In this document: positions 7,899-63,311 of the stretch, piece after piece | How positions within the stretch are numbered: position 1 is the stretch's first letter | Layout: every line of letters starts with the position of its first letter | Program-made: the position numbers and the translations under genes | IMG/VR virus record: IMGVR_UViG_3300034082_001419 | Coordinates: 57,495-121,494 of that record | Reading direction: 5' to 3' (one strand) | Source of the DNA: a virus | DNA length: 64,000 nt | The notes under the pieces: generated by a model | Database searches by the model: none | What the model saw: only the letters and a program-made list of their open reading frames with translations | Told to the model about the DNA's origin: nothing

Positions 7899-8411
7899 TT
7901 ATTTCTTTTTAGATTTTAGAGTACCCCCCTTTTTTTTAATCATTCCTGTACCAACATTTGGTGAAGGGTCAGTATTATAGAATTGTTTTGCAAAACTATC
8001 TCCTTTATCTAGTTTTTTAGAAACACTATCCCAACCTTTATTATTTTTACCACCTTTAAAGGGAACTTCTTCAAATTGCTCATAATATGGATATTTTTTA
8101 TTTAGAGCAGCAACTTGATCTGCTAAAGGAACAATAGGTCCTTGTGGTTGATAATTTTTTATAAGATTACCATAATCTCTTTGAGCTTCTTCACTACTAT
8201 TATTATCTCTTATACCTGCAGCAGCTTGTCTAGATCTTGCATCATCCATTGCTCTTTTTTCAGGATTATTAAACCAATAATTATTTTGTGGTCCAACAGT
8301 ATTACCTGTTTGTGCTTTAGGTAATGATTTTTTATATGCAGTTTGTCTAGCTTCATTAGCTTTTCTAAATGCAGTAATAGGGTGTTCTTTAGTTATTGTT
8401 TTCTTAGCCAT
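7899..8411 (-). CDS. Small Lys-rich protein, possible packaged cargo
   Basis: 170 aa, basic. It shares the (Q)TGNTVGPxN module at residues ~36-45 with its neighbour at 7426 and ends GMIKKKGGTLKSKKK, the same Lys-Gly-Gly tail style. The middle contains many Asn/Gln/Tyr. The stop lies 2 bases before the next ATG, consistent with an operon. Its function is unknown; the shared tail may be a packaging or capsid-docking signal (inference). Confidence 0.6.
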   Translation of the reverse strand: MAKKTITKEHPITAFRKANEARQTAYKKSLPKAQTGNTVGPQNNYWFNNPEKRAMDDARSRQAAAGIRDNNSSEEAQRDYGNLIKNYQPQGPIVPLADQVAALNKKYPYYEQFEEVPFKGGKNNKGWDSVSKKLDKGDSFAKQFYNTDPSPNVGTGMIKKKGGTLKSKKK

Positions 8412-8422
8412 TGTATATTATT

Positions 8423-8932
8423 TTAACAGTTCCACTTTCTTAAAGCTAATGCTTTTCTTGTAGGTCTACCTTTTTCATCTTTCATAGGTCCATCTACTCC
8501 AGACATTCTGCTACAGAAACTCTTGCGTCTCTTAGCATCTTTGCTTTTAGGATCAAGTTTAGAAGGTTTAGTTGTAACAGCCATCTTAAGTTTACTACCA
8601 GGATTAGCGGCTCTATATGAAGCCACTCCTTTAGCATTTAAGCCGCCTGTTTTATTCTTACCTTCTGATCTTGTCCAAGCAGGAGTGCTGCCCCCACTTT
8701 TCAATTTGGGCATTTTATCATTTTGTTTATGCCAATCTTTTTCAGCTTTAACACCTTGTTTAACTGTCTTAGCATTTGCTGTTCTTGTTAAACTAATTTT
8801 ATCATAACTACCTTTATTTTTATTAGTATGGTTAACCATTATGTCACCAACTTTACCTTCACCTCTTTTAGTAGTTTTTTTATACACTAGATGTTTTTCA
8901 TCACCTGTAGTAAGTTTAACTTTAGTAGCCAT
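8423..8932 (-). CDS. Basic protein with DUF6321-like C-terminus
   Basis: 169 aa. The C-terminal half has a distinctive pattern that I recall from phage proteins annotated DUF6321: LKSGGSTPAWTRSEGKN, AKGVASYRAANPGSKLKM, KRRKSFCSRMSGVDGPMK and finally KALALRKWNC. The N-terminal half is Lys/Thr-rich. Two conserved Cys (SFCSRM and WNC) could pair. It lies in the basic cargo-like cluster. Biochemical role unknown; I infer a virion-internal or DNA-associated protein. Confidence 0.65.
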   Translation of the reverse strand: MATKVKLTTGDEKHLVYKKTTKRGEGKVGDIMVNHTNKNKGSYDKISLTRTANAKTVKQGVKAEKDWHKQNDKMPKLKSGGSTPAWTRSEGKNKTGGLNAKGVASYRAANPGSKLKMAVTTKPSKLDPKSKDAKRRKSFCSRMSGVDGPMKDEKGRPTRKALALRKWNC

Positions 8933-28903: not shown

Positions 28904-31900
28904 TTAAAAATTATAATCTATACTTAATAATTCACTTCCTCCCCCTAAAACTGTTGGAATAAATCCGCCACCACCTGAAAATGTACCTATAGAACTGATA
29001 TTAGTGGTAGATGTAAAGGTAGGTGTTACCCCTGTATTTGCAACGAAAACTAATTGATTTCCAGAAAATGATCCTACACATTGATATATTAATATAGACG
29101 CCTGTATTTGAGTTACAATTTCAGAAGTTATTGTTGAAGTTGTTTTACCAGCACCAATAACAGAAATAGTTACTGTATTTGTACCGTCAAATATAGTTAC
29201 AGATGTATCTATATTCGCACTGGTTACTACCATTCTATTCATTATACCTGTGCCACTTGTGGAGTTTGCATTTATTTTTCCATTAGACATTGCATACCCT
29301 AATGTTATATTTTTAGAGGGTGTTGTATTTACAGGATATGTGACAAAAAGATTTGTAGGAGAATAAAGCCTACCATTATTTACAAAAACTCCCAAAGATT
29401 TACTTATCAATGGTGCAAATTCATTAATTCCTTTATTGTAGTAAATAGTTCCGTTATTTATTAATGTACCATTATTGTTTACAATTAGTGATGCACCAAC
29501 TGCCGTTAAATTTCCTGTTGTAATATAACCATTATTTGTAAATTTTCCTGCCCCAGTATAAGTTAAGCCACCTAAAAGAATGATACCACTATTAATAAAT
29601 TCACCGCCAGCTATTACTACAGTCATAAGTCTTGTTCCATGTGGCCCAGCTTGATTTCCATTATATTTAATAGACCCAGAATTTACGGTAACAGTGCCAT
29701 TAATACTTCCGTTTATATTATTTCCAAGACTATTTGACAATCCACTAACAACCACATTCCCAATAATAGCCCCATTAACAATTGATGGAGAACTACTTAA
29801 CGTAACAGTATTTACTGTTAATGAACCATAAATATTTACTGATCTAACACCATCTCCAGAGTCTATTATTGCAGTTGTTCCTGTAATATTTGCGTATATA
29901 TTTACAGGCCCAATTAGATTATAACTACCCAAAATAGTACCATTAATATTTCCTGATGCACCGCCTGTTATAGCCAACACACTAGAAGGTGTTACAATTT
30001 TTGTTGTTACGTCCGAATATCCTGCGTTATATCTTAATCCCCCTAATAATCCATAAGCATTTCCATTCCAAGTGAAATTATTAGTTACATTTATGTATGA
30101 TATAGAACCAAATCGACAATCAAACATATCACATACTATAGATAAATTTGTAAATGATAAGGTAAATGAACCAGTTCCCAAATTAACGGTAGTACAAATA
30201 GAATAATAATTGCCTAAATCCATAAAACCATCAATACCAGAAAAAGCATTTGGATTTATTAAAACACTATTTGCGTGTGTGCCATAGGTATTGCCTAAAT
30301 TTAAATAAAATGGAATTAATATATTACTTGTAAAAGTGAATAAGGATTGGTTACCGTATGATATTGTACCACCTAATTTTTTACTGTTAATATAAAAACC
30401 ATGTTTGTAATAATTTCCAGTTGCAACAAAACTACCGCTTAATACAACTTCATAAACAGTCCACCAAGTAGCCGTAATAGTAGCACTTGCCGTACACGCT
30501 TTACTTAATACAATTGTATTAGAAGTTTTACTAACTACAATTGAACCATAGGGTATTCCAGCACCTGTAATATATTGACCTACTTTAATATTTGTAGTAT
30601 CTGAAACAGCCGTTAATGTTGCACTTGTACTCGTTGTTGTTGCTGTTACCGTTCCTGTATTAGTTATATTTCCTAAGGCATATTCTGGCGTTAAATAAGG
30701 AGTGTTTATATCACCTCTACCTGTTGTTGCATTAATTCCGTTAACAGAATCTATATATATTGTATTTGCTTGTGGAATTGCTGACCCTCCATCTACCCAA
30801 CTAACAACCCCAGCACCATTTGTTTTTAAAATTTGATTTGCTGTACCATCAACTATTGGAAATGTATATGCATTATTTATTGTAAGACCACTAGAAGAAA
30901 TATTAACTCCAAAAAGAGAAGAAATATTATCACTTATTTGTAATGTTATACTTGCTGGTGTTTGTTGAATATTAGTATTACCTGATGTATCACCAACATT
31001 TAACATATTTTGTGTTAATGTTTGTTCTATCAATGAAGAAGAACCAGTACCATTTGTTTGATAAAAACGTATAATATTTCCTGATCCGTTGAATCTTAAA
31101 TTATTAGTTCCAAGTGATACTATTCTGTTTGCTGTTAAAGTACCGTCTGTATTGTAAATATTTACAGAAGAAGGTGTAGGTATATTTAATGTATTTGATA
31201 TTAATGTTGCTGCACCTGATGTTCCTATAGTAGTAAGAGTAATTGCATTTTGTTTTGCATTAAATATTGCAAAGTCAGAAGAAGATAAATAACCATTTGT
31301 TGATCCTGATGCTTGAGTAATACTTATTGCTGGAGTTGTTCCTCCAGATGATTGTATTGGTGCGGTACCAGTAACATTAGTTACAGCATTATTAGGAACT
31401 ACTTGATTTAATGTTGTTAACCCAACTGAATAATGTTGAGATCCCTCTGTTCTAAATGTAGCTGTTTGAGATACACCTGTAATATTCTCCATTGAGATTT
31501 TTACTACTATTCTATCTGATGTAAGTACTGTAGATGCAGGGATTACAGCATCACAAATATACATTGTAGTTACTGTTGGCATATTAGTTACAACAACTGG
31601 ATCTAATGTAAGTAGTAATGTTTCAATACCACCTAAATCTCTTTTATATACCGTAGGCCTAATTATCCAATTCTGACCTGTTGTTCCTGCATTAAAGTGT
31701 AAAAAGAATTGCCATAAACCTGTTGGAATTTGAGTTGTATTTGGAACTCCAATGGGTGTTTGAAATTCAGCAACTATTGTTGTAGCTCCACCGGCTATTG
31801 TAAAAGGAACAGTTTGTTCTGCTATACTTGTTGCAACTGATGAAAATTCTTTATAAGGTGTCTGTGTTACAGACTGATTTAAATAATATGTTGTAGTACC

Positions 31901-32053
31901 AGATCCACCAGGAATAGTAATAGTTGTATTACCGCCTGCATCTGATGATGAAACACCAGCACCTACAAAATCAATACTTAAAGCATCTGTAGTTATATTT
32001 ACACCTTCTTCAAGTATTGCAAGTTTTTTCTTTATATTAATTTCTGTACTCAT
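28904..32053 (-). CDS. Large tail fibre with beta-helix region (1049 aa)
   Basis: An N-terminal helix NIKKKLAILEEGVNITTDAL probably anchors it to the tail. It shares modules with other fibres: TTIGTSGAATLISNTLNIP (as in the 526-aa fibre), VNIYNTDGTLTANRIVSLG and NNAYTFPIVDGTANQIL (as in the 538-aa fibre). From residue ~430 the IYIDSVNGINATTGRGDIN opening is typical of beta-helix fibres, followed by long NGTVTVNSG-type repeats. The C-terminus differs from the others. Likely the longest host-contact fibre. Confidence 0.7.
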   Translation of the reverse strand: MSTEINIKKKLAILEEGVNITTDALSIDFVGAGVSSSDAGGNTTITIPGGSGTTTYYLNQSVTQTPYKEFSSVATSIAEQTVPFTIAGGATTIVAEFQTPIGVPNTTQIPTGLWQFFLHFNAGTTGQNWIIRPTVYKRDLGGIETLLLTLDPVVVTNMPTVTTMYICDAVIPASTVLTSDRIVVKISMENITGVSQTATFRTEGSQHYSVGLTTLNQVVPNNAVTNVTGTAPIQSSGGTTPAISITQASGSTNGYLSSSDFAIFNAKQNAITLTTIGTSGAATLISNTLNIPTPSSVNIYNTDGTLTANRIVSLGTNNLRFNGSGNIIRFYQTNGTGSSSLIEQTLTQNMLNVGDTSGNTNIQQTPASITLQISDNISSLFGVNISSSGLTINNAYTFPIVDGTANQILKTNGAGVVSWVDGGSAIPQANTIYIDSVNGINATTGRGDINTPYLTPEYALGNITNTGTVTATTTSTSATLTAVSDTTNIKVGQYITGAGIPYGSIVVSKTSNTIVLSKACTASATITATWWTVYEVVLSGSFVATGNYYKHGFYINSKKLGGTISYGNQSLFTFTSNILIPFYLNLGNTYGTHANSVLINPNAFSGIDGFMDLGNYYSICTTVNLGTGSFTLSFTNLSIVCDMFDCRFGSISYINVTNNFTWNGNAYGLLGGLRYNAGYSDVTTKIVTPSSVLAITGGASGNINGTILGSYNLIGPVNIYANITGTTAIIDSGDGVRSVNIYGSLTVNTVTLSSSPSIVNGAIIGNVVVSGLSNSLGNNINGSINGTVTVNSGSIKYNGNQAGPHGTRLMTVVIAGGEFINSGIILLGGLTYTGAGKFTNNGYITTGNLTAVGASLIVNNNGTLINNGTIYYNKGINEFAPLISKSLGVFVNNGRLYSPTNLFVTYPVNTTPSKNITLGYAMSNGKINANSTSGTGIMNRMVVTSANIDTSVTIFDGTNTVTISVIGAGKTTSTITSEIVTQIQASILIYQCVGSFSGNQLVFVANTGVTPTFTSTTNISSIGTFSGGGGFIPTVLGGGSELLSIDYNF

Positions 32054-49188: not shown

Positions 49189-49581
49189 ATGGAAAAGAAA
49201 AAAAAGTACTGCTCAGGGTGTGATTCTGAGCAGTATATTTGGAAAGCACATGAAGGCAATAAGTATTGCAAAAACTGTTGGGGTAAGATACAATCTAAAG
49301 ATCCAGATCATAAGGTTATACCTCAAGTATCAGCTAAGAGAAAGAAACTTGATGCTGAATATTTACTACTAAGAAAAAAGCATATGGAGAATAATGCATT
49401 ATGTCAAGTAAAAGTTGGTGGTTGTACTAATCTCGGATCAGACATACACCATACTTTTGCAGGATCAAATAGAAATGCGTTTTATTTAATACAAAGCACC
49501 TGGCTTGTTGTTTGCCGTAACTGTCATGATCATATTCATATGAATCCAGCAGAAGCAAGAACAATGGGTTGGTTAAAATAA
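49189..49581 (+). CDS. HNH-type nuclease
   Basis: 130 aa. N-terminal zinc pair CSGC...YCKNCWGK, then CQVKVGGCTNLGSDIHHTFA and a second pair VVCRNCHDHIHMNPAEA. The IHH and CHDHIH elements with flanking Cys pairs match HNH endonucleases of phages. It may act in recombination, packaging or as a homing nuclease. Free-standing, with no intron border seen around it. Confidence 0.75.
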   Translation: MEKKKKYCSGCDSEQYIWKAHEGNKYCKNCWGKIQSKDPDHKVIPQVSAKRKKLDAEYLLLRKKHMENNALCQVKVGGCTNLGSDIHHTFAGSNRNAFYLIQSTWLVVCRNCHDHIHMNPAEARTMGWLK

Positions 49582-49619
49582 ACTGAAAAAACAATAACTG
49601 AAATTAAAAAACTGAAAAG

Positions 49620-50360
49620 ATGAAAAAAAATGTAATTCAAATAGCAACAACAACAGAGTATTCAATGTTTAATTATTTACCAATGAATAGAAATATTGAT
49701 TCACTACAAGTTGAAAGATTAGTACAAAGTATAAGAGAAATGGGTGTTACCAGACAAGCAATCTGTATTAAAACAGCAGTAATTGATGGTGAATTAAAAA
49801 CATATGTAATTGATGGTCAACATTTAATACACGCATGTCAAAGAGAAGCAGTACCTGTAGAATACAGATACATTGAAGTTATTGATAAAGCTGACATTAT
49901 TAAAAAAATAGCTTTTTATAATAATTCATCTAAGTCATGGCAATTAATGGATTATGTTAATGCATGGATGTTTGATGTTCCTGATTATCTTTCTCTTAAA
50001 AAGTTTAAGAATTTATATAATCTTGAACCATTAATGATTGCTAATATCTGTAATAGTGAAATTGGATATAATGGAGTATCTTCAGCTAGTCAATTAATAA
50101 AAACAGGTGCATTTAGAATTAGTAATGTAAATGCAGAAGCAATGTGTAAAGATTTTAGTGATATGTTTATTAAGATTGGTAAAGCTGATAGATGGGTTAA
50201 ACATCAATTTTTAAAAGTATTTATTAAATCTTATAATCATCCTAGTTATAATCATAATGCTACATTAGCTAATGTTGATAAAAACATTAGTCAAATTAAA
50301 GCTATGACTGATATAACTATAGCTATGACTTTTATACAAAAAAATGTATTTGTTGTATAA
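49620..50360 (+). CDS. ParB/Srx-fold protein
   Basis: 246 aa. Residues ~28-75 match the ParB N-terminal or Srx-like fold: LQVERLVQSIREMGVTRQAI then TYVIDGQHLIHACQREAVPV. The YVIDGQHLIHAC segment carries the Gly-His pair typical of this nucleotide-binding fold. The rest is helical without the ParB helix-turn-helix. Often found next to helicases and nucleases in phages; role in DNA partition or transcription unknown. Confidence 0.7.
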   Translation: MKKNVIQIATTTEYSMFNYLPMNRNIDSLQVERLVQSIREMGVTRQAICIKTAVIDGELKTYVIDGQHLIHACQREAVPVEYRYIEVIDKADIIKKIAFYNNSSKSWQLMDYVNAWMFDVPDYLSLKKFKNLYNLEPLMIANICNSEIGYNGVSSASQLIKTGAFRISNVNAEAMCKDFSDMFIKIGKADRWVKHQFLKVFIKSYNHPSYNHNATLANVDKNISQIKAMTDITIAMTFIQKNVFVV

Positions 50361-50380: not shown

Positions 50381-50470
50381 ATGACAAGAGAAGAGATACA
50401 AAAGTTAGCATTGGATGCTACTGATAAGAAAAGAAAATGTGGATTAAGTTTAGCTACTGGTGGTTTGTAA
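50381..50470 (+). pseudogene. Orphan 5' fragment of a helicase gene (split at Walker A)
   Basis: The frame reads MTREEIQKLALDATDKKRKC through LATGGL and then stops. It matches the first 27 residues of the helicase that begins at 51270 (18 of 27 identical), ending exactly where that gene enters ATGVGKT. The DNA is much more diverged than the protein. This is the leftover exon-like piece of the interrupted gene (see findings). Confidence 0.75.
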
Positions 50471-50480
50471 AAAATAAATA

Positions 50481-50526
50481 ATATCCGTATCTTTGTAATA
50501 TGGAAATGAAACAAGGATACGGATAT
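50481..50526 (+). promoter_or_regulatory. Hairpin enclosing the start codon of the GIY-YIG gene
   Basis: A 15-bp stem (atatccgtatctttg 50481-50495 with caaggatacggatat 50512-50526; one wobble) puts the ATG at 50500 in a 16-base loop. In T4, hairpins over the start of homing endonuclease genes limit translation; I infer a similar role. Confidence 0.6.
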
Positions 50527-51273
50527 AAAATTTGTGGTATATATAAAATTACTAATGGTGTAAATAATAAAATATATATTGGCAGTAGTACAAACATTTA
50601 TTATAGACTGAGAAGACATAAGTCAGATCTATTAAATCAACAGCATAAAAATCTTTATTTGCAAAATGCATACAATAAATATGGAAAAACCTGCTTTAAA
50701 GTAGACATAATTGAAATATGTAGCATTGATCAAATATTTATTAGAGAGCAATATTATATAGATACACTTAATCCAGATTATAATATAAGAAGAGATGTAA
50801 TCACAAATAAAATGAGTGATGAAACTAAAAAGAAAATCTCTGAAATAATGAAAGAAAAGTCTAAAGCTGGTATAATAGTAAATCATTTAAATACTGATAA
50901 GAAAAAAGAAATTGATATATATGATTGTAATTGTAATCTTATTAAAAAGTTTAATGGATATAATGAAGCAGGTAGATATTTAAAAAGTATTTATCCCGCA
51001 TTTAAACCAAATTCAACATCACAAATAATTAAAAGTAAAAGTGGAAAATATAAAGATTATTATTTAATCCTACCTGATAAAAAATGTAATAACACAATTA
51101 CAAGGTCTGATGCATTCACAATTCAAATGATTAATACCATAACAGATGAAATGATTGTTTTTGATAGTGCTATGAAAGCTGCAAAATATTTAAATTGCGC
51201 TGAAAGTAGTGTTTTAAAGTCAATAAAAAAATCAAGGTTGTTGTTAAAAAAATATAAATTAATAAAATTATGA
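50500..51273 (+). CDS. GIY-YIG homing endonuclease with NUMOD repeats
   Basis: 257 aa. The N-terminal catalytic domain shows KICGIYKITNGVNNKIYIG (the GIY...YIG pair), STNIYYRLRRHKSDLL and a downstream Glu-Tyr element (REQYYIDTLNPDYN). The C-terminal region has two NUMOD-like DNA-binding repeats (IDIYDCNCNLIKKFNGYNEA and EMIVFDSAMKAAKYLNCAES). A nicking/cutting enzyme that spreads its own gene. Its stop overlaps the helicase ATG. Confidence 0.85.
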   Translation: MEMKQGYGYKICGIYKITNGVNNKIYIGSSTNIYYRLRRHKSDLLNQQHKNLYLQNAYNKYGKTCFKVDIIEICSIDQIFIREQYYIDTLNPDYNIRRDVITNKMSDETKKKISEIMKEKSKAGIIVNHLNTDKKKEIDIYDCNCNLIKKFNGYNEAGRYLKSIYPAFKPNSTSQIIKSKSGKYKDYYLILPDKKCNNTITRSDAFTIQMINTITDEMIVFDSAMKAAKYLNCAESSVLKSIKKSRLLLKKYKLIKL

Positions 51274-52370
51274 CCAGAGAAAAAATTCAAGAACTTGCAT
51301 TAAATGCAACTAATAATAAAAAGCGTTGTTCATTGATTCTTGCCACAGGTGTTGGTAAGACTTTAGTAGGTCTTATGCATATGGAAAGAAATCTGACTCC
51401 ATTAATGAATGTGCTTATTGTTGCTCCTAAGCTTAGTATTTTTACATCTTGGAGAACTGAAGCTATTAAGTTTAATAAGTCTCACTTACTTGACACAGCA
51501 CAATTCACTACTTACTTAAGTTTGAATAAACTAGATCCAAGAGAGTATGATATGATTTACTTTGATGAAGCTCACTCATTGTTACCTTCACATAGAGAAT
51601 TTTTAGATGAGTATGACGGTAAGATCTTAGGTCTTACCGGTACTCCTCCTAAAATGGTAAATAGTGAGAAAGGTGAGATGATGCAAGAGTTCTATCCTAT
51701 ATGTTATGAATACTTAACTGATGATGCTATTAATGATAATATCTTAAATGATTATAAAATTATTGTGCATCAACTTAGGTTAGACAATAGTAATAAGAAT
51801 GTTAAAGCAGGTAGTAAGTATAAATCATTCTTTACTACTGAATTAGCTAATTATAATTATTGGTGCAGCAGAATAGAGGATTCTAGACCGGGAAAAGAGC
51901 AGCAAATTTCAAGAGTAATGAGGATGAAGGCTATGATGGCTTTTCCAAGTAAAGAAGCTTATACTAAGATATTGAGTAACTCAATTAAATCTAAGTGTAT
52001 TATATTTGCTAATACTCAAGAGCAAGCTGATCAATTATGTAACTATAGTTATCATAGTAATAATCCAGAATCTAGTGATAATCTTAATATGTTTAAGTCA
52101 GGTAATATTACTAAACTATCTTGTGTATTACAATTAAGTGAGGGTATTAATATTCCTAATCTTAAACAATGTATTATACTACATGCTTATGGTAATGAGC
52201 GTAAGGCTAGTCAAAGAATCGGGAGATGTTTGAGATTATCTGTTGATGAAACAGCTACTATTCACATTCTATGTTATATGGATACTATAGATCAGAAATG
52301 GGTTACTGAAGCATTATCTGGTTTTGATCAGGATAAAATAGAGTGGAAAGATTTTAATATTAAGTTATAA
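51270..52370 (+). CDS. SF2-type DEAH helicase (restored after HEG insertion)
   Basis: 366 aa. Walker A ATGVGKTLVG near residue 26, motif Ia VLIVAPKLSI, motif II MIYFDEAHS, motif III LTGTPPKM, and C-terminal QRIGRCLRL (motif VI). Smaller than typical helicases, so it likely lacks accessory domains. It begins with the rebuilt MTREKIQELALNATNNKKRC. It may act in phage DNA replication, recombination or transcription termination. Confidence 0.85.
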   Translation: MTREKIQELALNATNNKKRCSLILATGVGKTLVGLMHMERNLTPLMNVLIVAPKLSIFTSWRTEAIKFNKSHLLDTAQFTTYLSLNKLDPREYDMIYFDEAHSLLPSHREFLDEYDGKILGLTGTPPKMVNSEKGEMMQEFYPICYEYLTDDAINDNILNDYKIIVHQLRLDNSNKNVKAGSKYKSFFTTELANYNYWCSRIEDSRPGKEQQISRVMRMKAMMAFPSKEAYTKILSNSIKSKCIIFANTQEQADQLCNYSYHSNNPESSDNLNMFKSGNITKLSCVLQLSEGINIPNLKQCIILHAYGNERKASQRIGRCLRLSVDETATIHILCYMDTIDQKWVTEALSGFDQDKIEWKDFNIKL

Positions 52371-61463: not shown

Positions 61464-61475
61464 TATTTGCATGAG

Positions 61476-63311
61476 ATGTTGAAAAAAGCAGAAACACCAA
61501 CAAAGTGGAATAGTCAGAAAGAAGGTTTTCAGGAATCATTACATTATTTAAAAGGTAGAATGGCAGGTGAGATTAAAAGTCTTAGAACTCCATGGCCTAA
61601 ATTTAATGATGCAATGACAGATGGTATTGAATGGAATACAATGACTGTAATTGGTGGAAGACCTGCTTGTTTATCTGGTGATTCACTAATGTATATTGCA
61701 AGAAAAGGTCCAAAAGGATCTGGCAGATGGTATAGTCTAAAAGATATATACTATAAATTTAATGGTTTAAGACATACAGATATGTCATCTAGAGATAGAG
61801 GTTGGAATAATACTATTACAACTAATACTCAATGTTATAAATATGATGAAAACTTAACAGGTTTAAATCAAATTGAAGCAGTGTATGAATCTGGGATTAA
61901 ACCTGTTTATTTAGTAACAACTGAAACAGGCAAAACAATAAAAACAACTTTAGATCATAGATTTTTAGTTGACTTTTGTGATGATTTTAAAGAATTAAAA
62001 GAGTTAAGCATAGGTGATTTTATTGTATGTAAAGCTGAACCAAAGAAAAAAGATAAAGCTGAAAAAATAACTCACAAAAGAGTTCATATAATAAAAAAAA
62101 TGGCTTATTATCCTTCAGCAAAAGTTAAAATAACAGGTAAATATACATATCATAGAATTTCTGAAGCAAGAGCTGTATATGATGCTAACCTTAATGATTT
62201 AGAATTAACTGAATTTCTTGATAAAGTAAATGCACCAAACAATTTTGTATTTTCTGATATGACAATGGAAATACATCATATGGATCAAAATCCTTTAAAC
62301 AATGATATAAGTAATTTACAATTATTATCAGTTAAAGAGCACCATGCTTTACATAATGATAGATCTAGACTTGGTTTAAACCATGTGCAAAAAGAAAAAA
62401 TTGTATCTATTAATTACATAGGGGATGAAATGACTTATGATGTATCAATGAAAGATCCATATAATAATTTTATTGCAAATGGTTTTGTTGTTCATAATTC
62501 AGGTAAAACTTTAATAGTAGAACAAATAGTGAGAGAGTCATTTCTTTTAAATCCAGCTGAAGACTTTAGAGTATTACAGTTTCAGTTTGAGATGTTAGCT
62601 AGATCTTCTGCAATTAGAGAGTACTCAAGTATAATTGGTAAGTCATATAAGTATTTATGTAGTGCTGATGGACAATTGAGTCCTGAAGATTTACAAAAGT
62701 GTTATAACTATGCCAAAGAAAAAGTAAAGTATCCTATTGATATTGTTGAGAAACCATGTACTGTAGATGAGTTCATTAGAACTATTCAAGAATATATGGC
62801 TTATTATTCTACCGTTGATGATAACGGTGTAAGACATTTTAAGAAAACATTGATATCATTAGACCACTCTTTGCTTGTAAAAAAAGCACAAACAGAAAAA
62901 GATAAGAATGAGACACTAAATAATCTTGGTGAGGCATTAACATCATTGAAAAGGATATACCCTATAGCATTTATAATATTAAGTCAGTTAAATAGAAATA
63001 TTGATAATCCTGAAAGATCAGAAGATGGCAAGTATGGTAATTATGTATTAGAATCAGATATATTTGGTGCTGATGCGTTATTACAACATGCTGATACCGT
63101 AATAGGTATTAATAGACCAGCAAAACAAAAGATCAGATTCTATGGCCCTGATAGATTTATAATTGAGAATGATAGAGTAATGGTATTACACTTTTTAAAA
63201 TGTAGAAATGGTGATACAAGATTAAGCTTCTTTAAAGCAGAGTTTGAAAAGATGAGTATTGCAGAGATGAATACTCCTGCTCAACAAGAAAAAAGAATAG
63301 GAACCAAATAA
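61476..63311 (+). CDS. dnaB: DnaB-type replicative helicase precursor with intein
   Basis: 611 aa precursor. I chose the ATG at 61476 (MLKKAETPTKWNSQ). The extein (about 334 aa after splicing) starts with WPKFNDAMTDGIEWNTM and has the RecA-fold core without the usual DnaB N-terminal domain. Joining the exteins gives GGRPASGKTL, an intact Walker A. Later motifs: LISLDHSLLVKK (Walker B), FIILSQLNRNI (Gln switch) and ADTVIGINRP. It unwinds DNA at the phage fork. Confidence 0.88.
   Translation: MLKKAETPTKWNSQKEGFQESLHYLKGRMAGEIKSLRTPWPKFNDAMTDGIEWNTMTVIGGRPACLSGDSLMYIARKGPKGSGRWYSLKDIYYKFNGLRHTDMSSRDRGWNNTITTNTQCYKYDENLTGLNQIEAVYESGIKPVYLVTTETGKTIKTTLDHRFLVDFCDDFKELKELSIGDFIVCKAEPKKKDKAEKITHKRVHIIKKMAYYPSAKVKITGKYTYHRISEARAVYDANLNDLELTEFLDKVNAPNNFVFSDMTMEIHHMDQNPLNNDISNLQLLSVKEHHALHNDRSRLGLNHVQKEKIVSINYIGDEMTYDVSMKDPYNNFIANGFVVHNSGKTLIVEQIVRESFLLNPAEDFRVLQFQFEMLARSSAIREYSSIIGKSYKYLCSADGQLSPEDLQKCYNYAKEKVKYPIDIVEKPCTVDEFIRTIQEYMAYYSTVDDNGVRHFKKTLISLDHSLLVKKAQTEKDKNETLNNLGEALTSLKRIYPIAFIILSQLNRNIDNPERSEDGKYGNYVLESDIFGADALLQHADTVIGINRPAKQKIRFYGPDRFIIENDRVMVLHFLKCRNGDTRLSFFKAEFEKMSIAEMNTPAQQEKRIGTK
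61668..62498 (+). mobile_element. Intein with HNH endonuclease in DnaB Walker A
   Basis: 277 residues from Cys1 (CLSGDSLMYI) to His-Asn (FVVHN), with Ser as the +1 residue. Block B is TTLDHRF (TxxH). The central part carries an HNH-type endonuclease (MEIHHMDQNPLNNDISNLQL, then EHHALHN). All residues needed for splicing (Cys1, TxxH, His-Asn, Ser+1) are present, so it is probably active and mobile. Confidence 0.9.

Follow-up and report, generated by a model that had tools for sequence, protein, structure and literature searches.

We identified, in a 64-kb stretch of DNA from a 121 kb virus record (this whole stretch is hereafter referred to as the window), a GIY-YIG homing endonuclease gene (HEG) that occupies the Walker A codons of a helicase gene, carries a substitute 5' end for that gene, and has left the resident 5' end stranded upstream as a short relic. 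The locus (positions 50381-52370) consists of a short open reading frame (ORF), the HEG and the helicase, in that order (Table 1). We interpret it as a mobile element, composed of the HEG and a substitute helicase 5' end, that would spread through a cycle of cutting, repair and relic formation, and assign this explanation as a whole a probability of about 0.85. Selfish endonucleases in conserved genes are normally hidden in introns or inteins, or lie between genes. A spare gene end would provide a further solution to the problem of survival, opening the most conserved codons of a gene to occupation without splicing machinery.

Table 1. Positions of the features of the helicase locus in the window.
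Feature	Position	Strand	Remarks
ParB-like gene upstream of the relic	49620..50360	+	PHROG ParB-like, E=3e-19
Relic ORF	50381-50470	+	29 codons, MTREEIQKLALDATDKKRKCGLSLATGGL followed by a stop; stop at 50470
Part of the relic ORF derived from the resident helicase	50381..50461	+	codons 1-27, with a start codon of its own and in frame
Left border of the inserted element	50461..50462	.	within the Walker A codons
Promoter-like sequence	50464..50495	+	Bacteroidetes type, TTTG-N20-TATCTTTG; inside the left border, directly 5' of the HEG start
GIY-YIG HEG with NUMOD1	50500..51273	+	257 aa
Carried replacement 5' end of the helicase	51270..51353	+	codons 1-28
Resident helicase body (ResIII/Helicase_C)	51354..52370	+	from Walker A GKT onward

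The helicase locus and its element-free relatives

The rebuilt helicase (51270-52370) has 366 aa and ResIII and Helicase_C domains. In the HEG product, Pfam identified a GIY-YIG domain (PF01541, E=3.4e-11, 43.7 bits against a cut-off of 22.6) and a NUMOD1 domain (PF07453, E=4.7e-7, 30.3 bits, cut-off 22.8), and the best PHROG assignment was to homing endonucleases (E=2e-24). The GIY-YIG core and the conserved R, E and N residues are invariant in its relatives. Having both a catalytic domain and a NUMOD-type DNA-binding module, the protein can be assigned, on its predicted domains, to the GIY-YIG homing endonucleases. The initial annotation of this DNA had reported that 18 of 27 residues of the short ORF are identical to the N-terminus of the helicase, that the similarity ends where the intact copy reads ATGVGKT, and that the stop of the HEG overlaps the ATG of the rebuilt helicase; all of this was borne out, the similarity ending at 50461, in the first Walker A codons (between ATG and VGKT), and the overlap being 4 nt (ATGA). 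The order relic-HEG-helicase recurred in an IMG/VR contig of different sample origin (3300043570_002890), and its HEG-helicase portion in contig 3300042900_000728. This recurrence in further contigs rules out an assembly artefact.

A search with the helicase yielded the IMG/VR contig 3300042897_000181 (L003), which has no endonuclease at its helicase gene. The relic matches the start of this HEG-less gene (L003:1489-1569) at 79 of 81 nt and at all 27 residues, both nucleotide differences being synonymous, and the helicase bodies of the window and L003 are identical at 991 of 1011 nt (98%), whereas the window's carried 5' end matches L003 at merely 57 of 81 nt. Since relic and body match L003 and the carried end does not, the small ORF represents the native 5' end, now stranded, and the working helicase bears a foreign one, fused in frame at Walker A as judged from these alignments. 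The similarity between the short ORF and the helicase N-terminus is not due to chance, because in L003 the same residues are fused to the same body. The uninterrupted L003 gene, with a 5' end corresponding to the relic, thus supplies the comparison with HEG-lacking relatives that had been proposed in the initial annotation and, together with a recurrent left border (see below), supports its placement of the insertion at Walker A. The change-over from the carried end to the resident body falls between codons 27 and 29, and the window differs from L003 at only two positions in the next 300 nt, despite the 18% difference of the other carrier's body, suggesting little or no co-conversion beyond Walker A.

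Similar results were obtained for L117 and its HEG-less sisters L191 and L192, for which the relic was identical at 72-74 of 81 nt, the carried end at 49 of 81 and the body at 999-1006 of 1011. At the level of sequence, the relic corresponds to the native gene end of an element-free relative for L003, L191/L192, crAss001, L337 and L257. In all seven cases tested, the closest native match was nearer for the relic than for the carried end, and a comparison of the carried ends with 100 unique native 5' ends revealed no close native allele (best match for the window, 58/78). The two 5' copies had been described initially as more different in DNA than in protein, but their identities are 68% and 67%, respectively, within the range of native helicase pairs at that protein distance: the window pair has 52 of 78 nt identical at 17 of 26 aa (native pairs: mean 54.6, sd 3.7), and six other pairs also lie within range. 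Special synonymous recoding of the carried end was rejected, as there was no excess relative to all pairs of the 100 native 5' ends. The proposal of a carried, recoded 5' end therefore stands in that a foreign end arrived together with the endonuclease and makes the gene whole again (L003, L013), but not as regards recoding beyond ordinary divergence.

The surroundings of the helicase are variable. In the window (49189-50360) and in L003-L017, the genes directly 5' of the helicase, which include ParB-like paralogues, an HNH-like 130-aa protein and small ORFs, are shuffled among otherwise close phages, and this spot looks like a recombination hotspot. The ParB-like gene and leader of the window also precede the HEG-less helicase of L015. 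The latter, at L015:798-880, contains a patch of 22 nt that matches the element-borne end exactly, the rest being native (L014-like); this patch could reflect repair that copied the substitute end without the endonuclease, or a lost element. A tblastn comparison of a 1049-aa protein encoded elsewhere in the window (28904-32053, minus strand) with 50,697 annotated phage records gave no match, indicating that the window phage is far from sequenced isolates.

Distribution of the family and mobility of its 5' end

With the HEG protein alone as the query, matches were obtained from the same phage only; an alignment of three HEGs revealed the family, with relatives 43-56% identical. All the full-length relatives (L081, L082 and L112-L128) lie immediately upstream of the same helicase, and the family was found in around twelve phage backgrounds, in each case directly 5' of this gene. 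A relic ending at Walker A is retained in nine backgrounds, including cr112_1 and PhiCrAssBcn14; such relics are found in L117 (=L115), L116, L118-L120, L122/L123, L124 and L198. In L121, L125 and L128 only a few codons of it are left, and in L013, L077 and L113 no relic precedes the HEG, which lies immediately 5' of the helicase. A single N-terminus was found in 134 of the 138 helicase loci with an N-terminal match and two in the other four, all with a HEG. Two N-termini without a GIY-YIG gene, the arrangement that the initial annotation considered incompatible with its reading, occurred at none of the 138 loci.

The left border lies at the same position, within about 4 nt, in the window, L117, L198, L122, L124, L121, L125 and L128, and is followed in each by TTTGTAAAA or a close variant. 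By eye, a TTTG-N20-TAnnTTT(G/A)-like block is conserved before the HEG in several lineages with strongly diverged HEGs. This block resembles the consensus of Bacteroidetes promoters. A scan of the 64 kb with this consensus gave two matches, with 2.2 expected, so a single match is not significant by itself; we consider the block promoter-like because of its conservation across lineages, not because of the match in the window. The spacer that separates relic and HEG has been invaded in L118-L120 by an additional small ORF and a sequence resembling the 3' end of a tRNA (GGTTCGAATCC). The alignments of these loci confirm that gene-end replacement by this HEG family is real, recurrent and diverse rather than a one-off event.

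The endonuclease and the carried 5' end travel together. Between the window and L013, identity is 93.8% for the HEG and 98.7% (77/78 nt) for the carried 5' end, but 82.4% for the body. The L013 body is 96% identical to that of the HEG-free L015, whose 5' end differs. The carried end is thus foreign to the body of L013 too, and its presence with the same HEG in another backbone indicates that HEG and 5' end move as a unit. Likewise, L116 and L118 have identities of 99.0% for the HEG, 100% for the carried end, 90.5% for the body and 86.4% for the relics, and L077 and L113 have identities of 99.0%, 100% and 91.3% for HEG, carried end and body, respectively. The bodies of L117 and L198 are 87.5% identical in amino acids, but their HEGs and 5' ends are different; each has its own native relic, and these are alike at 67 of 78 nt. 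With similar relics and different elements, these two loci indicate that two elements entered one backbone at the same codons. The HEGs of L113 and L116 are 86.4% alike in DNA and their carried 5' ends 64%, and the carried end of L198 is partly resident-like in protein, suggesting that the right border shifts now and then. In partial rank correlations, both the HEG (0.57) and the body (0.46) had a share. Judging from these identities, the linkage between HEG and carried end is tight recently and loosens over time. This loosening, and the loss of the relic in several members, count against our main explanation; our confidence in the anatomy of the element and in the co-mobility of HEG and 5' end, as read from the alignments, is nonetheless high.

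The family includes named phages and cultured gut phages (Kehishuvirus, Crassvirales). In crAss001, the helicase (gp88) is plain, with no HEG in front, whereas in the metagenomic phage cr112_1 it is preceded by a GIY-YIG gene (gp087). In BLAST comparisons, PhiCrAssBcn14, 15, 16 and 18, isolated on Bacteroides intestinalis, match the cr112_1 helicase over the whole gene, whereas endonuclease-free isolates match it only from nt 62-64 on. The relics of PhiCrAssBcn14 and cr112_1 end at Walker A, between LPTS and FGKS, and are 98.6% (over 71 nt) and 97% (over 70 nt) identical, respectively, to the 5' end of crAss001; their rebuilt 5' ends match it at 31/63 and 33/63 positions, and their helicase bodies match that of crAss001 at 1077/1092 and 1006/1092. 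In PhiCrAssBcn14, the one isolate examined, the GIY-YIG gene is truncated by deletion of its GIY-YIG half; the relic and the rebuilt 5' end are retained (L342:2117-2535), and the NUMOD1 end of the endonuclease is still an ORF. By its sequence, this phage carries a fossil, a decayed element in which the catalytic half of the endonuclease is gone but the substitute 5' end persists. As the substitute end is now needed, loss by clean excision would be difficult. The relic is without annotation in the records viewed for cr112_1 and PhiCrAssBcn14. The paper on the PhiCrAssBcn isolates noted variable endonucleases (PMC10354031); neither GIY-YIG nor a helicase came up when its text was searched. The availability of cultured crAss-like phages with a decayed element (PhiCrAssBcn14-16 and 18, judging from PhiCrAssBcn14) and without the element (crAss001) makes it possible to test parts of the explanation. 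The helicases resulting from such replacements are chimeric, and can mislead phylogenies and annotation.

Proposed mechanism, alternatives and known systems

The element would measure about 0.9 kb, comprising the promoter-like left end, the GIY-YIG HEG and the first 27-28 helicase codons of an element-borne lineage. On co-infection, a phage lacking the element would have its helicase gene cut by the endonuclease at the Walker A codons, and the break would be repaired from the element-bearing copy; the helicase body would serve as the right arm, and the left arm would consist of the relic, where kept, and the DNA upstream of it. The recipient would gain the element, with its own 5' end severed and left upstream as a relic, and its helicase would stay whole, the substitute 5' end being functional and in frame with the resident body. 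The insertion would split the native site, from which the substitute end diverges at roughly one position in three. With a promoter at the left end, the coupled start codons would allow endonuclease and rebuilt helicase to be produced from one transcript. The element would thus spread like an intron, the host gene being rescued by gene-end replacement instead of splicing. We infer the cleavage site, homing, the role of the relic as a homology arm and the essentiality of the helicase from the sequence comparisons. A broader reading, to which we give slightly better than even odds, is that this is a long-lived phage family of natural "home-and-rescue" elements, each with a HEG, its own promoter and a substitute end, at the Walker A codons of the helicase. 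The relic would act as the left homology arm, the carried end would be kept unlike native ends, preventing its use as a repair template that leaves the HEG uncopied, and the same solution would have arisen repeatedly in other GIY-YIG lineages and genes, at 5' and 3' ends.

Free-standing phage HEGs typically bring a resistant neighbouring allele with them (PMC2988022, PMC12724721). In one-sided intronless homing of this kind, a free-standing HEG beside its target would be copied by homologous repair on the right and joined illegitimately on the left, making the relic accidental and the new 5' end the donor's native allele. The absence of a relic in L013, L077 and L113, with the HEG directly 5' of the helicase, fits such a process. 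Accidental joins should vary, however, and the left border is constant at Walker A, with a conserved TTTGTAAAA, in many lineages; moreover, the 100 unique native 5' ends include no close native allele of the carried ends, and the 5' end is foreign to the body in L013 also, so we consider this explanation unlikely. Even less credible is a tandem duplication of the helicase 5' end, with subsequent insertion of the HEG between the copies and divergence. It would account for a HEG flanked by two related N-termini, but the single copy of L003 corresponds to the relic rather than to the new end, L013 has this new end in another backbone, and no HEG-free locus with both copies was found in our set. 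We therefore reject a simple duplication, in agreement with the initial annotation, which had argued against a recent one.

The possibility that the helicase is restored from its first fragment by the splicing of a group I intron or intein containing the endonuclease is suggested by the frequent location of GIY-YIG/NUMOD1 enzymes in introns, the insertion at a conserved functional codon, and a second GIY-YIG gene in the same genome (L084) that may sit in an intron. Yet the rebuilt helicase has a full N-terminus and Walker A motif, such that joining of the fragment would duplicate the N-terminus; Rfam, at gathering thresholds, detected no group I intron in the window, L083, L013 or L077, and Pfam no intein domains in the window HEG. 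The locus is therefore not a group I intron, splicing is extremely improbable, and the intron-like placement without an intron described by the initial annotation holds. We attach equally little probability to the relic being a functional leader peptide or a separate subunit of a gene in pieces, as for nrdA of phage Aeh1. Its start codon and frame are preserved, and the two differences from L003 are synonymous, but the relic repeats the start of the downstream gene without completing it, and has been lost or is down to a few codons in L013, L077, L113, L121, L125 and L128.

The mobile element with a substitute gene end that we favour has its closest known counterpart in fungal mitochondria, where mobile ORFs rebuild the 3' ends of genes (atp6 of Allomyces macrogynus; atp6, atp9, cox2 and nad3 of Glomus sp.; PMC3630166); the view of the initial annotation that known analogues do not rebuild the gene is thus incorrect. 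In both systems, an endonuclease gene in a conserved gene supplies a foreign completing end, the native end is left as a relic matching an element-free relative, and relic and carried end are strongly different in DNA. The fungal ORFs, however, replace the 3' end, with the relic downstream, are mitochondrial and encode mostly LAGLIDADG enzymes (GIY-YIG in atp9), whereas the phage elements affect mainly the 5' end, encode GIY-YIG enzymes, have a promoter-like left end and occupy the same codon across very divergent double-stranded DNA phages. As the window element replaces a 5' end, it does not belong to the 3'-end type. In SegF-type intronless homing, too, the endonuclease is outside an intron and the transferred flank replaces target sequence (PMC2988022, PMC12724721), but SegF and similar T4 HEGs are located in the space between intact genes and cut hundreds of bases from their own position. 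The window HEG is instead inside its target gene at the junction, a 27-codon relic is left and the end of the replaced stretch is only a few bases from where the element is inserted, so the HEG is not of the free-standing type with an intergenic position, intact target and distant cut site. An endonuclease gene also interrupts a conserved coding region without an intron for mobE in nrdA of Aeh1 and mobA in T4 gene 60 (PMC2988022), but there both halves are needed and reassemble, whereas in the window nothing is missing from the downstream gene and the piece 5' of it is redundant; the locus is not a gene in complementing pieces.

The element would be a natural counterpart of recoded-rescue gene drives. 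In the engineered home-and-rescue drive HomeR (PMC7968924), a homing nuclease is likewise placed in a gene together with a restoring substitute end, of 22 or 27 residues (27 in the window). HomeR is a CRISPR-based construct in flies, with a deliberately recoded 3' end, whereas the window element is natural, with a 5' end showing ordinary divergence. No earlier report of gene-end replacement by phage homing endonucleases was found in our searches, which covered mainly open-access literature. We provisionally consider the 5'-end form, as a lasting phage family, to be new, rebuilding being known at the 3' end in fungal mitochondria.

Other target genes, insertion sites and selfish elements

A protein-level scan for repeats (duplicated gene ends) flanking about 60 more distant GIY-YIG genes revealed three more cases, L145, L146 and L148; the remaining matches were GIY-YIG or NUMOD repeats, or noise. 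The target in L148 is an adenylosuccinate-synthetase-like (PurA-like) gene (Pfam E=5e-82), with a relic (MIDYADVVVDLAC followed by a stop) upstream and a rebuilt gene beginning with MIDYADVVVDLAYGDSGKGK. The relic matches the endonuclease-free L257 at 33 of 36 nt and the rebuilt end at 27 of 36. In L145, it is the 3' end that is replaced, and the native C-terminus of the endonuclease-free L337 is found as a relic downstream of the endonuclease. L146 apparently has a similar 3' replacement, so L145, and probably L146, are direct phage counterparts of the fungal form. A different GIY-YIG/NUMOD gene (L018:4127-5000) is inserted in the same helicase after about codon 7, with a relic of 7-8 codons (MTRDEIQ) and a longer rebuilt N-terminus; from its sequence, this element is independent of the one in the window and follows the same strategy elsewhere in the gene. 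The initial annotation was thus largely right about the window, but missed the widespread family and the mirror-image and other-gene versions.

The genome of the window phage contains further selfish elements. The second GIY-YIG gene (L084; G000:C1 ~8029-8460, outside the window) splits an ATPase-like gene. It was rejected as a second gene-end replacement, as there is no duplicated end, and looks like an intron; its 3' flank contains a GATATAGTC-like motif, typical of group I introns, although Rfam gave no match at this locus. Within the window (61467-63311, plus strand), a DnaB-like helicase contains an HNH intein (Pfam Intein_splicing, E=9e-16) in Walker A, between GRPA and SGKT. Like the HEG element, this intein is selfish DNA placed in the Walker A codons of a helicase, but it removes itself by protein splicing, with no gene-end replacement. 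In this one phage, the Walker A codons of two helicases are thus each occupied by a selfish element.
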